Of a stretch of 64,000 nt of DNA, positions 9,301-15,970 are shown piece by piece; position 1 is the stretch's first letter, and the number at the start of each line of letters is the position of its first letter. The notes under the pieces were generated by a model. The model was given only the letters and a program-made list of their open reading frames with translations. It was not told where the DNA came from and made no database searches. A program made the position numbers and the translations under genes. The stretch is taken from the NCBI GenBank assembly GCA_016861185.1, contig BOKW01000003.1:124001-188000 (forward strand), read 5' to 3'. Origin of the DNA: Betaproteobacteria bacterium. GTDB taxonomy: Bacteria; Pseudomonadota; Gammaproteobacteria; Burkholderiales; Burkholderiaceae_F.

Positions 9301-9939
9301 ATGCGCGGCTGGCTCGCGATCCTTGCGCTGGCGGCGCTGCCGGCGGCCGCTCACGATGCGCGCGCGCCGGCCGCGCCGGAGCTTGCGCCCGCGCCGAAAA
9401 TGGCGGTCATCCGCCAGGCGCCCGAGTTCACGCTGCTCGACCCGCACGGAAAGCCGGTGCAGCTCGGGGAGCTGCGCGGCCGCGTCGTGCTGCTGGCGTT
9501 CGTCTACACGACCTGCACCGGCGCGTGCCCGCTGCTGTCGGCCCGGATGGCGCGACTGCAGGCGCGCCTGATCGACGCCGGACTCGCGGATCGCGTGGCG
9601 CTGCTGTCGGTCACCGTCGATCCGGAGCGCGACACGCCGGAAGCGCTGGCACGCTACGCGCGCAAGTTCGACGCGCGGCCGGGCTGGCACTTCCTGCGCG
9701 ACGGCCGCGAACGGATGCAGGCCGTGCTCGCCGCGTACGACGAATGGACGCGGCCGCTGCCCGACGGCGACATCGACCATCCCGCGCGGCTGCACCTGAT
9801 CGACGGCGAGGGACGCGTGCGCGAGATCTACAGCCTGTCGCTCTTCGATGAGCGGCAGGCCTATCTGGACATCGCAGCGCTGCTGCGCGAGGACGCTAGG
9901 CCGCCTGCAGCTTCGCGATCGAGAGCAGCAGCTCCTTGA
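9301..9939 (+). CDS. SCO1/SenC copper chaperone
   Basis: A thioredoxin-fold protein that loads copper onto periplasmic enzymes. It has an N-terminal signal or anchor ([18 protein letters not shown]), the copper-binding CxxxC at residues 72-76 ([11 protein letters not shown]) and the third ligand His in [13 protein letters not shown]. Length (212) is normal. It starts three bases after the methanethiol oxidase gene, so cotranslation is likely and the natural client is that enzyme, although cytochrome oxidase is the classical client of the family. Its last 44 bases overlap the end of the convergent uvrD gene. Confidence 0.9.
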
Positions 9940-12900
9940 CGCCCTGCGGGCCGAAGTTGATCTTCGCGCGCGCGTCGTCGCCGCTGCCTTCGAGCTTGAT
10001 GATCACGCCGTCGCCGAAGCGCGCGTGGCGCACCGATTGGCCGATGCGGAAGCCGTGCACGGTTTGCGGCTTGGGGGTAATGGCCGGCACGGTGGGCTGC
10101 GCGCCGGCGTCGTGCCACTGCCCGTAGCGGATGCCGGCGCTTTCGCGCAGCCGCGGCGTCAGCCACTTGACCGCGCCCTCGGGCAGCTCGTCGATGAAGC
10201 GCGACTTGACCCCGTAGCGCGTCTGCCCGTGCAACATGCGGCTCTGCGCGAAGCTCAGGTAGAGCCGGCGCCGCGCGCGCGTGATCGCGACGTACATCAG
10301 GCGCCGCTCTTCTTCCAGGCCCTCGGGCTCGGTGACGCTGTTGTCGTGCGGGAACAGGCCCTCTTCCAGGCCGGTGATGAAGACCGCGTGGAACTCGAGC
10401 CCCTTGGCGGCGTGCACGGTCATCAGCTGCAGCGCGTCCTGCCCTTCGTTGGCCTGGTTTTCGCCCGCTTCGAGCGATGCGTGCGAAAGGAACGCCGCCA
10501 GCGGCGACGGGATCGCGTTGTCGGTTTCGGCCTGCGTGGCCGGCGCGTCGGCCGCGTAGCCCTCTTCGCCGACGAAAGCGGCGGCGGCGTTGACCAGCTC
10601 GTTCAGGTTCTCGATCCGCTCCTGCCCTTCCCTTTCGGTCCGGTAGTGCGCGACCAGGCCGCTGCGCTCGATCACCGCGTCGACGATCTCCTGCAGCGGC
10701 AGGTTCGCGGTCTCGAAGCGCAGGCTTTCGATCAGCTTGACGAACGTGGCGAGGTTGGCGCCCGCCTTGCCGCTGACGCCGCCCACTGCCGCGTACAGGC
10801 TCTGGTTCGCCGCGCGCGCCGCGTCCTGAAGCTGCTCGAGCGTGCGCGCACCGATGCCGCGCGGCGGGAAATTGACGATGCGCAGGAACGCGGTGTCGTC
10901 GGCCGGGTTCTCGATCAGCCGCAGATAGGCGAGCGCGTGCTTGATCTCCGCGCGCTCGAAGAAGCGCAGTCCGCCGTAGACGCGGTACGGGATGCCGGCG
11001 TTGAACAGCGCGTGCTCGATCACGCGCGACTGCGCGTTCGAGCGGTACAGCACCGCGATCTCGCTGCGCGCCAGCCCCTCGCCGATCAGGTTCTTCACCT
11101 CGTCGACGAGCCACGCGGCCTCCAGCCCGTCGGAGCCGGCTTCGAAGACGCGCACCGGCTCGCCGTGACCCGCGTCGGTCCACAGGTTCTTGCCGAGCCG
11201 GCGCGCGTTGTTGCGGATCAGCGCGTTGGCGGCGTCGAGGATGTGGCCGTGCGAGCGGTAGTTCTGCTCGAGCTTGATGACGTTGCGCACGCGGAACTCG
11301 CGCTCGAAGTCGGCCATGTTGCCGACGTTGGCGCCGCGGAACGCGTAGATCGAGTTGTGCGTCAGCAGGCCGTTGGCGACGAAGTTGTGCGAGGCCTCGA
11401 CGTCGAGGTCGTAGACGGTGACCGTCGCGCGCGGTGCCACCTCGACCGCGGCGACGGTGTCGAAGCCGCCCTCCGCGGTGAAGATCGCCATGCCGGTGCG
11501 CACGTGCTCGGCCTGCGTCAGCGGCAGCGTGCGCCGTCCGAGCCGGGCGCGGCTCAGGATGCGGCCGCCGAGCACGGCGCGGATCCGGCGTGCGTCGTCG
11601 ACGAGTTCGCCGTAGTCGCGGCGGAACATCTGCACGCACCAGCCGCCCTTGCCGTCCTCGACGACGGTCGGCTCGTAGCCCGCCTCCTGGAGCTGCTGCG
11701 CTTGCTTCCTGTCGAGCGTGCGCGCGTACAGCCGGTGGTTCGGCGCCCCGCGGCGCGTTTCCGCGCACAGCGTCAGCAGCACGTCGCCGGGCGCACCGAA
11801 GCTCGGCCGCCGGCGATCGTCGGGGCGATCGGCCGCGAGCTTCAGGTCCTCCAGCAGCCAGCGCGCCGAGCGCTCGGTGTTCAGCGCACCGAACTCCGGC
11901 GGCGGTGCGCCGTTGCCGCGCGCGGTGAAGCCGCGCGTCGGCAACCCGTACTTCAGCGAAAGCACGCGCAGGCGCTGGTGCGCGCTCTGTTCGTCGTCGA
12001 AGGACTCGAGCACCCACACCGACTCGGCGCCTTCGCGCCGCGCGCGGTGACGGAATCCCGGCACGGCCTTGTCATCGACGTGTTCGTTGCGATGCCCCGA
12101 CACGGCGAGCCGGTAGCCCACGCCGGGCTTGTGCATCAGGCAGAGGAAGTGCTTCGGCGGCAGATGCCCGACCGCGTAGCCGGCGAAATGCGTGTGGTCC
12201 GGCGTGCTGGTCAAGGTGCGGCCGCCGGCTGTGCGGATCGTCACCAGCGACGCTTCCATGCTGCGCGCATGCACGCCGATGACGCGCGCGGCGCCGAAAT
12301 GGCCGCCGCCGTAGGCGGAGCGCACGCGGTCGCCCACGCCGACGCGCTCGATCAGCTTCAGCGACCCGTCCTCCATCAGCACCTGCGTTCCGGCGGCCAG
12401 GCACTGATCGTCGTCGCCGACGGCGAACAGGCAGTTGCGTGCGCCGCCGCCTTCGCCTTCGCCGAGGCCGGCAAGCAGCTTGAGCCACTTGTACTGCAGC
12501 ACGTTGGTGTCCTGGAACTCGTCGACCAGGATGTGGCAGAAGCGCTCCTGGTAGTGCGCGCGCAGCGGCTCGTTGCGGGCGAGCAGCTCGTAGCAGCGCA
12601 GCAGCAGCTCGGCGAAATCGACCACGCCTTCGCGCTGGCACTGCGCGTCGTAGGCCGCGTACAGCTCGATGAACCTGCGGTTGTAGTCGTCGTTGACTTC
12701 GACGTCCTTCGCGCGCAGACCGGCTTCCTTGGCGTTGTTGATGAACCACTGCAGGTTGCGCGGCGGATAGCGTTCGTCGTCGACGTTGTTGGCCTTCAGC
12801 AGCCGCTTGATCGCGGAGAGCTGGTCGGCCGAGTCGAGGATCTGGAAGGTCTGCGGCAGATTCGCGTCGCGGTGATGCGCGCGCAGCATCCGGTTGCACA

Positions 12901-13168
12901 GCCCGTGGAAGGTGCCGAGCCACATGCCGCGCACGTTGATCGGCAGCATCGCGGAGAGCCGCGTCAGCATCTCCTTCGCGGCCTTGTTGGTGAAGGTCAC
13001 CGCGAGCACGCCCTGCGGGCTGACCTGGTGCGTCTGGATCAGCCAGGCGATGCGCGTGGTCAGCACGCGCGTCTTGCCGCTGCCGGCGCCGGCGAGGATC
13101 AGGGCGGATTGATTGGGAAGCGTGACCGCCGCGAGCTGGCGGTCGTTCAGATTCTCGAGCAGGTTCAT
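9896..13168 (-). CDS. uvrD: UvrD/PcrA-type DNA helicase precursor containing an intein
   Basis: SF1A 3'-5' helicase of nucleotide-excision and mismatch repair. The precursor has 1090 residues: host 1-255, intein 256-605, host 606-1090. Removing the intein leaves 740 residues, the normal length. Host motifs include Q-motif [11 protein letters not shown], Walker [10 protein letters not shown] at 25-33, the DExx box [11 protein letters not shown] near 223 and motif [15 protein letters not shown]. The intein splits motif III exactly between GDDDQ and SIYAFRGA, so the helicase should be active only after splicing. The ATG at 13168 is chosen because the Q-motif begins a few codons later; upstream in-frame codons are antisense to leuS. 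It diverges from leuS by 63 bases. Confidence 0.96.
11354..12403 (-). mobile_element. Intein (350 residues) in helicase motif III of UvrD
   Basis: A protein-splicing element in frame within uvrD. Block A starts with Cys1 ([14 protein letters not shown]). Block B has the Thr-x-x-His catalytic pair in TSTPDHTHF (Thr67, His70 of the intein). Block F is [14 protein letters not shown]. Block G ends in the penultimate His and terminal Asn of GLLTHN, and the first extein residue is Ser. All residues for class-1 splicing are present. The first 80 and last 50 residues are the Hint domain. The central 215 or so residues show no LAGLIDADG or HNH motif that I can recognise; a block resembling a worn GIY-YIG fold lies near residues 85-160. 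Confidence 0.95.
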
Positions 13169-13231: not shown

Positions 13232-15970
13232 ATGCGCGACAAGTACGCACCGGCCGAGGTCGAAGCGGCCGCGCAATCGCACTGGCAGTCGATCGACGCC
13301 TATCGCGCGCGCGAGAACGATGCGCGCTTTCCGAAAGGCAAGTTCTACGCGTGCTCGATGCTGCCCTACCCCAGCGGCAAGCTGCACATGGGGCACGTGC
13401 GCAACTACACGATCAACGACATGATGTACCGCCATCTGCGCATGAAGGGCTACAACGTCCTGATGCCGATGGGCTGGGATGCGTTCGGCCTGCCCGCGGA
13501 GAACGCGGCGATCAAGAACAAGGTCGCGCCGGCGAAGTGGACGTACGAAAACATCGCCCACATGAAGCGGCAGATGCAGGCGATGGGGCTCGCGATCGAC
13601 TGGTCGCGCGAGATCGCCGCCTGCGATCCGGCCTACTACAAGTGGAACCAGTGGCTGTTCCTGAAGATGCTCGAGAAGGGCATCGCCTACCGCAAGACGC
13701 AGGTCGTCAACTGGGACCCGGTCGACCAGACCGTGCTCGCCAACGAGCAGGTGATCGACGGCCGCGGCTGGCGCACCGGCGCGCTCGTCGAGAAGCGCGA
13801 GATCCCCGGCTACTACCTGGCGATCACGAAGTACGCCGACGAACTGCTCGAGTACACGCTGGACAAGCTGCCCGGCTGGCCCGAGCGCGTGCGGCTGATG
13901 CAGGAGAACTGGATCGGCAAGAGCTACGGCGTGAACTTCGGTTTCCCGTACGACCTCGACGGCAAGCGCGAGCTGCTGCGTGTGTTCACCACGCGCGCCG
14001 ACACGATCATGGGCGTGACCTTCGTCGCGCTCGCCGCCGAGCATCCGCTGGCGACCCGGCTCGCGCGCGACGACGCGCAGGTCGCGGCCTTCGTCGAGGA
14101 GTGCAAGCGCGGCACGGTGATGGAAGCCGATCTCGCGACGATGGAGAAGAAGGGTGTTCCGACCGGCTTCTTCGTCACGCACCCGCTCACGGGCGAGAAG
14201 GTCGAAGTGTGGGTCGGCAACTACGTGCTGATGGGCTACGGCGAAGGCGCGGTGATGGGCGTTCCCGGCCACGACGAACGCGACTTCGCGTTCGCGAAGA
14301 AGTACGGGCTGCCGATCAGGCAGGTGATCGATTGGCCTGCACGGAAAATTCCCCCCGGCACTGCATCGAAAATCCCCCCCGGCCCCCCTTTACAAAAGGG
14401 GGGAGCACAGCAGCCCCCTCTGGAAAAGGGGGCCGACGCGCGCAGCGCGGCGGGGGGATTTTTGAGCGCCGGCACGCGCGACGCTGACGCACCCTTCGAC
14501 GCTGCCTGGCAACCCTGGTACGCCGACAAGGACGGTGTCTGCGTCAACTCGGGCAAGTACGACGGCCTCGCGTACGAGGCCGCGGTCGATGCGATCGCCG
14601 CGGACCTCAAAGCGAAGGGCCTCGGCGACAAGCAGGTGCAGTGGCGGCTGCGCGACTGGGGCATCTCGCGGCAGCGCTACTGGGGCACGCCGATCCCGAT
14701 CATCCACTGCGCCGACTGCGGCCCGGCGCCGGTGCCCGAGGAGGATCTGCCGGTCGTGCTGCCCGAAGATCTGGTGCCCGACGGCAGCGGCAATCCGCTC
14801 GCGAAGGACGAGCGCTTCCTCGCGTGCACATGTCCCAAGTGCGGCAAGCCGGCGCGGCGCGAGACCGACACGATGGACACCTTCGTCGACAGCGCCTGGT
14901 ACTACATGCGCTACTGCTCGCCCGACGCGAAGACGATGGTCGACGCGCGCGTCGACTACTGGATGCCGATGGACCAGTACATCGGCGGCATCGAGCACGC
15001 GGTGCTGCACCTGCTGTACGCGCGCTTCTGGACCAAGGTGATGCGCGATCTGGAACTCGTCAAGTTCGACGAGCCGTTCGTGCGCCTGCTGACGCAGGGC
15101 ATGGTGCTGAACCACATCTGGTCGCGCCGCAACGACAAGGGCGGCATCGAATACTTCTGGCCGCAGGACGTGACGCCCGTGACCGACGCGTCCGGCCGCA
15201 TCGTCGGCGGCAAACTCGCCGACGGCACGCCGGTCGAGTACGGCGGCATCGGCACGATGTCGAAGAGCAAGAACAACGGCGTCGACCCGCAGGACCTGAT
15301 CGACAAGTACGGCGCCGACACCGCGCGGCTGTTCGTGATGTTCGCATCGCCGCCGGAGCAGACGCTCGAGTGGTCGGACACCGGCGTCGAAGGCGCGGCG
15401 CGTTTCCTGCGCAGGCTGTGGAGCTTCGGCTACGGCGTGCGCGACGCGGTCGCCGCCGGCCGTCCGCAACCCGCGTCGCGCTCGGCGGCGCGCTTCGAGT
15501 TGCATCGAACGCTCGGCCAGGTCAACTACGACTACGAACGTCTGCAGTACAACACGGTCGTGTCAGGCGCGATGAAGATGCTCAACACGCTCGAAGCCGC
15601 GCCGCGCGACGAAGCATTTCCCGCGCTCGTGCACGAAGGGCTCGGCATTCTGCTGCGCGTGCTGTCGCCGGTGACGCCGCACATCGGCCACGCGCTGTGG
15701 ACCGAGCTGGGCTACGCCGCGCAGTACGGCGACATCCTCGACGCGCCCTGGCCCGAGCCGGCAGCCGACGCGCTGGCGCAGGACGAGATCGAGCTGGTCG
15801 TGCAGGTCAACGGCAAGCTGCGCGGCGCGGTGCGCGTGCCGGCGCAGGCCGACAAGGCCGCGATCGAAGCGGCGGCGCTCGCCGACGCCAACGTGCGGAA
15901 GTTCGTCGGCGGCAACGCGGTCAAGCGCGTCGTCGTCGTGCCGGGCAAACTGGTCAACGTGGTCGTCTGA
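13232..15970 (+). CDS. leuS: Leucyl-tRNA synthetase with an in-frame repeat insertion
   Basis: Charges tRNA-Leu. At 912 residues it is about 45 longer than usual. The class-I signatures are HMGH at 52-55 ([15 protein letters not shown]) and MSKSK near 675 ([13 protein letters not shown]). The editing domain is present ([21 protein letters not shown]). The zinc-type insertion [13 protein letters not shown] also appears. Residues about 371-421 are low-complexity, Pro/Gly-rich and encoded by a palindromic repeat; they interrupt the stretch between QVIDW and [12 protein letters not shown], a region that is variable in length. A TTG four codons upstream is an alternative start. lptE follows, and holA and proA overlap in sequence, suggesting an operon. 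Confidence 0.97.
14369..14462. repeat. Palindromic repeat with 11-bp terminal inverted repeats, in-frame in leuS
   Basis: AAAATCCCCCC at the left and GGGGGGATTTT at the right are perfect inverted repeats. Inside are a strong CCCCCCTTT/AAAGGGGGG hairpin and a second C-run/G-run pair around CTGGAAAA. A partial extra copy of the left end (AAAATTCCCCCC) lies 20 bases further left. This is the form of a non-autonomous palindromic element. It carries no stop in the leuS frame and encodes residues such as [21 protein letters not shown]. Confidence 0.78.

Follow-up and report, generated by a model that had tools for sequence, protein, structure and literature searches.

Class-1 inteins splice through an N-S acyl shift at Cys1, transesterification to the +1 residue and cyclisation of the terminal Asn, which is aided by a His. 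The closest described systems are found in phage helicases. The UvrD-type helicase gp34.33 of Bacillus phage SPO1 (FJ230960) is annotated with an apparent intein of 275 residues. This element occupies the same site (GDDDQ/SMYSFRGAK) as the intein of the window (the whole 64,000-nucleotide stretch of Burkholderiales DNA analysed here), has class-1 ends and contains a homologous nested core. The UvrD/Rep helicases of Escherichia phage JohannJBalmer (MZ501084) and its kin are interrupted at the same motif III site (GDEFQ/CIYQFRG), and the JohannJBalmer record is annotated as an intein-containing UvrD/Rep helicase precursor. An intein at this site in UvrD of phage CampHawk is reported in PMC3868849. 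Since phage UvrD inteins are already annotated at the motif III site, the presence of an intein in UvrD is not new.

Inteins of UvrD, Rep and PcrA, which belong to the same host family, are also listed in PMC5874633. The passage on them places helicase inteins at the P-loop and gives no endonuclease type, whereas the window intein lies in motif III. According to a 2006 survey, GIY-YIG nucleases had not been found in inteins (PMC1564403). No GIY-YIG intein was found in the portions consulted of the open-access literature, including PMC5874633, PMC7765530, PMC6390638, PMC6801210, PMC3229294, PMC2814812, PMC5050341, PMC8966425, and PMC10448857. The new part of the present locus is the nested nuclease, not the intein in UvrD.

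A class-1 intein in helicase motif III of UvrD

The uvrD reading frame of the window (13168-9896, minus strand) is open over 1090 codons. Codons 256-605 (window positions 12403 down to 11354) make up a 350-residue insert, which is preceded by GDDDQ and followed by SIYAFRGA. The extra residues, on which the first-pass annotation was built, are read directly in the frame, and recomputing the host without them gives the 740-residue UvrD that it had proposed. Both flanks of the insert are matched by the NCBIfam uvrD model, and the host protein is matched by Pfam UvrD-helicase and UvrD_C. The predicted intein mass of about 38 kDa agrees with the calculated value (38.3 kDa), whereas the host, put at about 83 kDa, is slightly lighter (82.1 kDa). 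The G+C content is 72% in the insert vs. 66 and 69% in the extein parts and 68% in the window. The intein is present as a single copy in its own genome assembly, which is 85.6% complete. The features are:

9896-13168, minus strand: uvrD host gene with in-frame intein; 1090 codons plus stop; 740-residue host
11354-12403, minus strand: intein of 350 residues between Gln and Ser of helicase motif III, modelled with AlphaFold2
12167-12403, minus strand: splicing (HINT) domain, N-terminal half; residues 1-79, with C1 and T67-x-x-H70
11909-12166, minus strand: nested nuclease-like core; residues 80-165; probably divergent GIY-YIG-like; C88, A100, and L145
11528-11908, minus strand: second nested domain, possibly DNA-binding; residues 166-292; arrangement of elements resembling half a LAGLIDADG domain
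11354-11527, minus strand: splicing domain, C-terminal half; residues 293-350, ending in His-Asn, then Ser+1

The residues needed at the splice junctions had been described as intact, and they are all there: C1, T67-P-D-H70, H349, N350, and Ser+1. The window intein therefore has the ends by which class 1 is defined (Cys or Ser at position 1, T-x-x-H, a terminal His-Asn, and Ser, Thr, or Cys at +1). C1, T67, H70, H339, H349, and N350 are conserved in all 77 inteins of an alignment consisting of the window copy and 76 of 80 related loci; left out were two cut by contig ends (L107, L121) and two with internal deletions (L118, L120). The comparison with Hint profiles that had been proposed gives a clear match. 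Pfam Intein_splicing (PF14890) scores 40.0 bits against a cut-off of 35.8 (E 4.3e-10), and NCBIfam TIGR01443, for the C-terminal splicing region, scores 31.8 against 15.6; the N-terminal model TIGR01445 stays below its cut-off on the window intein (19.9 vs. 24.5). With the first two models above their cut-offs and the splice residues conserved, the segment is beyond chance resemblance. An AlphaFold2 model of the full intein, built on the alignment of 77, has a pLDDT of 92.3 and a pTM of 0.87. Each of the 36 PDB chains that it hits at E ≤ 0.001 is an intein, intein-like, or hedgehog domain, and gp41-1 is covered over its own length with a TM-score of 0.85-0.86 by target length. The splicing domain thus has the HINT fold in the predicted structure.

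It is clear that 11354-12403 encodes a class-1 intein in motif III of uvrD. Judging from these residues, it would leave UvrD post-translationally, by an N-S acyl shift at Cys1, transesterification to Ser+1 and cyclisation of Asn350 helped by His349. Given the position of the insert, an unspliced helicase would presumably be inactive. The suggestion of the first-pass annotation that splicing controls the repair helicase finds no support in these observations.

In the leuS gene (13232-15970), an interspersed repeat (14346-14470, plus strand) lies in frame after IRQVIDWP and has 14-nt inverted arms at 14366-14379 and 14452-14465. It has 57 matches in the genome (281 candidates, 40 scored), and the relative L047 is without it at that leuS position. 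We take it to be reminiscent of the Rickettsia palindromic elements in coding genes.

Distribution and inheritance of the motif III inteins

Within the GTDB-style family of the window's genome, matches to the intein occur in 8 of 67 genomes, which belong to 4 of the 18 genera. A search of 37 same-family genomes with the whole protein gave 28 empty alleles, called from adjoining match coordinates around motif III, and 6 inteins, one of them cut by a contig end; the remaining 3 genomes are without a call. Thirteen empty uvrD alleles from the family and the order were read directly. Such alleles had been named as something to look for in relatives. When the order was sampled evenly, matches were seen in 13 of 399 genomes, with 8 full-length UvrD inteins, 2 mini-inteins, and 3 other matches (G405, G191, and G261). 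With UvrD inteins in 10 of 399 genomes, inteins of this kind are infrequent in the order, in line with the earlier remark that inteins are uncommon in betaproteobacteria. In a sample of the class, 23 of 369 genomes match, 4 of them with a full intein; of the 26 loci concerned, 3 have their ends at the UvrD site and 14 have theirs in other hosts, and for 9 no junction could be read.

The family extends well beyond the order. An alignment query found 105 relatives in GTDB genome contigs, and the best 80 were taken further. The insertion site is in UvrD/PcrA in all 80, with both junctions read in 78 and the other two, L107 and L121, cut by a contig end. By record name, the hosts are Proteobacteria, Acidobacteria, Actinobacteria, Chloroflexi, Dormibacterota, and candidate-phylum bacteria. 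The window intein is therefore not an isolated allele, but a member of a family of UvrD/PcrA motif III inteins that occupies one site in several phyla. The window protein alone finds no close relative in genome contigs or viral contigs, and the alignment query finds none in viral contigs. With the family member L109 as query, 66 phage records match, 37 of them over most of the query, and 6 plasmid records match in part.

These observations bear on the possibility that UvrD simply contains an extra folded segment that is never spliced out. The HINT fold and splice residues, the empty alleles in relatives, the use of one exact site across phyla and the phage inteins annotated there all speak against it, and we regard it as extremely improbable. 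The first-pass annotation had itself named two outcomes as fatal to an intein: no similarity to Hint profiles, or a folded, unspliced segment in every relative. What was found is the reverse of both, since Hint similarity is seen and some relatives have empty alleles.

Has the intein moved between hosts? For Rubrobacter it has. A tree in which the Rubrobacter inteins form one clade is rejected (AU test, p-AU 0.0004), whereas their exteins do form one clade. The inteins of Azospirillum L067 and Rubrobacter L101 share 65% of their residues vs. 43% for the exteins. The alphaproteobacterial inteins also look displaced in the tree, but for them a single clade is not rejected (p-AU 0.36), so Rubrobacter is the sole case that we use as shown transfer. 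The AU tests cover 35 of 73 rows. The extein comparisons cover 73 of the 77 aligned inteins, the 4 with short flanks being omitted. The picture is different for the seven inteins of the window's clade. Here, the intein and extein trees have the same branching (over the branches listed), and since they branch alike, inheritance in this clade seems to be vertical.

The nested region

The splicing domain would host a two-part homing-endonuclease region. In the AlphaFold2 model, the first part consists of strands 84-92 and 96-104, helix 116-124, strand 128-135, and helix 138-152. The second has helix 176-186, strands 208-217 and 220-229, helix 232-240, strand 255-261, and helix 264-278, and is possibly DNA-binding. 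A separate AlphaFold2 model of the middle domain (pLDDT 86.7, pTM 0.64) has the same elements as the full model. By sequence, the JohannJBalmer intein has the same two-part region; it is about 26% identical to L109 over its whole length and keeps the equivalents of Y88, G100, and E145. In contrast, the nested region of the SPO1 intein appears shorter, ending soon after the core without most of what corresponds to residues 166-292 of the window copy.

Standard searches do not name this region. For residues 70-292 of the 77 inteins, the best E-values are 0.0099 in Pfam, where the match is below cut-off, 0.017 in NCBIfam, and 1.4 among PDB sequences, none of which is significant. There is no HNH family and no LAGLIDADG match among the Pfam results for the 77 middle domains, and PF01541, the Pfam GIY-YIG model, is matched by none of these domains or of 26 selected cores. 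PHROGs is unconvincing (best E 0.0022, to a helicase family, for 3 of 13 whole inteins; 0.011 for cores). When the middle-domain model is compared with the PDB by Foldseek, no hit reaches E ≤ 0.001. eIF1-like structures lead the 50 matches listed; the LAGLIDADG enzymes I-LtrI and I-OnuI follow at E 0.03-0.2, and GIY-YIG chains are absent from the list. In the viral library, three proteins pass E 0.001, of which one is unnamed and the others are named as an adenine methyltransferase and a 3'-5' helicase; the GIY-YIG enzyme of a phage is listed there at E 0.029.

In the AlphaFold2 models, the topology of residues 84-152 fits the b-b-a-b-a core of GIY-YIG nucleases, but the PDB fold hits listed include no GIY-YIG chain. 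A clue to the nature of the core is the pattern of conservation. Seven columns (Y88, M90, R98, G100, R120, W130, and E145, in intein numbering) are invariant in an alignment of 26 cores, which comprises 20 hand-chosen from the 70 inteins outside the window's clade and 6 divergent ones from SPO1, an E. coli phage, a Streptococcus phage methylase, an uncultured phage, and two plasmid helicases. Of these columns, Y88, G100, R120, and E145 would correspond to the GIY Tyr, the YIG Gly, the helix Arg, and the helix Glu, an equation that rests on profile alignment and a match to 1yd6 and that is ambiguous for R120. The 1yd6 match comes from a PDB sequence search with the 26 cores. The list up to E 10 has two chains and is headed by this UvrC GIY-YIG domain, at E 1.2 over the whole core.

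Profile comparison gives mixed results. The profile of 76 cores, from which the 7 window-clade rows are omitted and to which the 6 divergent phage and plasmid cores are added, was aligned with 30 pooled GIY-YIG domains, and none of 200 column shuffles scores as high. The same is true of a combined URI and MUG113 profile (0 of 200), and nearly so of a URI-type profile of 8 sequences (1 of 200); a UvrC-type profile alone (22 sequences) is equalled by 12 of 200. In the pooled alignment YLM pairs with VYIL, G-x-R-L-G pairs with L-Y-x-G, and A-x3-E145 falls on the helix motif A-x3-E. The comparisons do not support a particular relationship to T5orf172 or MUG113, which have Lys at the position of the YIG Tyr: on their own these families are equalled by 74 and 125 of 200 shuffles. 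From the family loci fetched, all 30 GIY-YIG, 17 of 23 LAGLIDADG, 19 of 30 T5orf172, and 22 of 30 MUG113 sequences were used.

The likeness has limits. In comparison with URI-type nucleases, the UvrC N-terminal domain and I-TevI, the core has a similar order of strands and helices, a similar Tyr...Gly...Glu spacing and the A-x3-E helix, but it differs in that R98 occupies the position of the second (YIG) Tyr, the profile score is weak and the domain is nested in an intein. The HHalign probability against GIY-YIG is about 1-8%, and the scores (15.2 to 19.4) lie within the lower part of those of accepted pairs (14.8 to 32.4). A first run with all 77 sequences aligned 20-27 columns with probabilities of 0.2-1.9%. 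Because of the low HHalign probability, the negative results for T5orf172 and MUG113 alone and scores near the low end of accepted pairs, we call the core divergent GIY-YIG-like. On the sequence comparisons we lean, with moderate confidence, towards this assignment.

What if the resemblance is convergent? In this scenario, the intein stands as described, but its nested domain would have a nuclease fold that is new or unrelated, or would be a LAGLIDADG enzyme that has changed strongly, with residues 166-292 as one half. The Foldseek ranking of I-LtrI and I-OnuI with no GIY-YIG chain among the 50 rows, the lack of a significant match in Pfam, NCBIfam, and PDB sequences and the negative T5orf172 and MUG113 comparisons would all fit. 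However, LAGLIDADG was tried directly for both nested parts, and hhalign against a profile of 17 LAGLIDADG sequences performs at chance (73 of 100 shuffles as high for the core and 33 of 100 for the C-terminal part), whereas the pooled GIY-YIG score exceeds all of its 200 shuffles. The invariant columns also coincide with the GIY-YIG motif positions. We consider this alternative rather unlikely.

The core is found in other hosts as well. An intein with this nuclease core interrupts a Streptococcus phage adenine methyltransferase (L180, 294-3236), which shows that the core also occurs outside UvrD hosts. Two plasmid helicases, from Stanieria and Thermobispora (L181 and L182), have core-bearing inteins in which the second nested part is shorter; their insertion point is just upstream within motif III (GD[P/S]/CQ...HN/CQAI). 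Three further loci (L037, L038, and L169) match parts of the nested region weakly, in frames with stop codons. These matches may be due to chance, or they may be what is left of relatives that were free-standing.

State of the window copy and the homing cycle

If the core is a GIY-YIG-like nuclease, then in related inteins it (residues 84-152) would cut the empty motif III of uvrD, and repair would copy the intein in, with the C-terminal nested domain probably aiding DNA binding. The window copy is different. It has C88, A100, and L145 where other members have Tyr, Gly, and Glu. Each of these three residues, like R120, is kept in all 70 aligned inteins outside the window's clade, that of Hydrocarboniphaga effusa (L051) among them. 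Within the clade of seven, Y88 is kept in two, G100 in one, and E145 in one, and none of the seven keeps all three. Since positions matching the GIY-YIG active site are replaced, the window copy is most likely homing-incompetent. The splice residues are kept in all seven. From its residues, then, the window copy has probably retained splicing and lost homing, and most likely it is now passed on vertically.

Decay under relaxed selection alone is hard to reconcile with the low dN/dS of close pairs in the window's clade. Among the rows listed, the core has dN 0.050 and dS 0.57 for L043-L045, and dN 0.053 and dS 1.00 for L044-L046. Between close relatives, the protein sequence of the nested domain thus evolves slowly, as would be expected if it had a role in folding, splicing, or DNA binding, and it is likely that in the window copy it has been partly retained for reasons other than homing. 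A stronger version of this idea is that the nested domain has been domesticated in the window's clade, with catalysis lost and the domain kept to support folding or splicing, or to bind DNA. Ten other positions (M90, G96, R98, G116, R120, E124, W130, S149, H223, and W255) are kept in all seven members, although none retains Y88, G100, and E145 together, and the low dN/dS of close pairs agrees with this. Furthermore, deletion of the endonuclease domain impaired splicing in several inteins, according to PMC8966425. What does not fit is that the core is less constrained in pairs involving the window copy (vs. L042, dN 0.303 and dS 0.74). The ratio of core to splicing-domain dN has a median of 1.03 over the clade's 21 pairs vs. 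0.65 in 135 other pairs. Mini-inteins without the domain also exist at the UvrD site. We rate domestication as somewhat less likely than not.

These mini-inteins have 177 residues and are found in two genomes of the order (L040, 1501-2031; L041, 1129-1659), with the same family code as the full-length inteins. They are a possible ready-made minimal splicing domain. The inteins L118 and L120, which are 314 and 327 residues long, respectively, have internal deletions in the nested region. Given the two mini-inteins and these two deletions, the nested region is dispensable.

Overall, the explanation that we favor, again with moderate confidence, is a splicing class-1 intein with a GIY-YIG-like homing region, whose homing has been lost in the window copy. 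The broader proposition is one on which we are evenly divided: that the UvrD/PcrA motif III inteins and the related ones in the phage methylase and plasmid helicases carry a GIY-YIG-type homing endonuclease, a class previously unreported in inteins in the literature searched; that it is modular, with the core present with or without a DNA-binding domain; and that in the Burkholderiales clade of the window its active site has been lost although the domain is still constrained. For the nested nuclease family there seems to be no Pfam or NCBIfam model and no solved relative detectable by sequence. If it is GIY-YIG, then a class of nucleases hitherto associated with group I introns and free-standing genes has been taken up by inteins as well, and a family found in both bacteria and phages provides full, internally deleted, catalytically altered, and mini versions at a single site, with which the homing cycle of invasion, fixation, decay, and deletion becomes directly testable.
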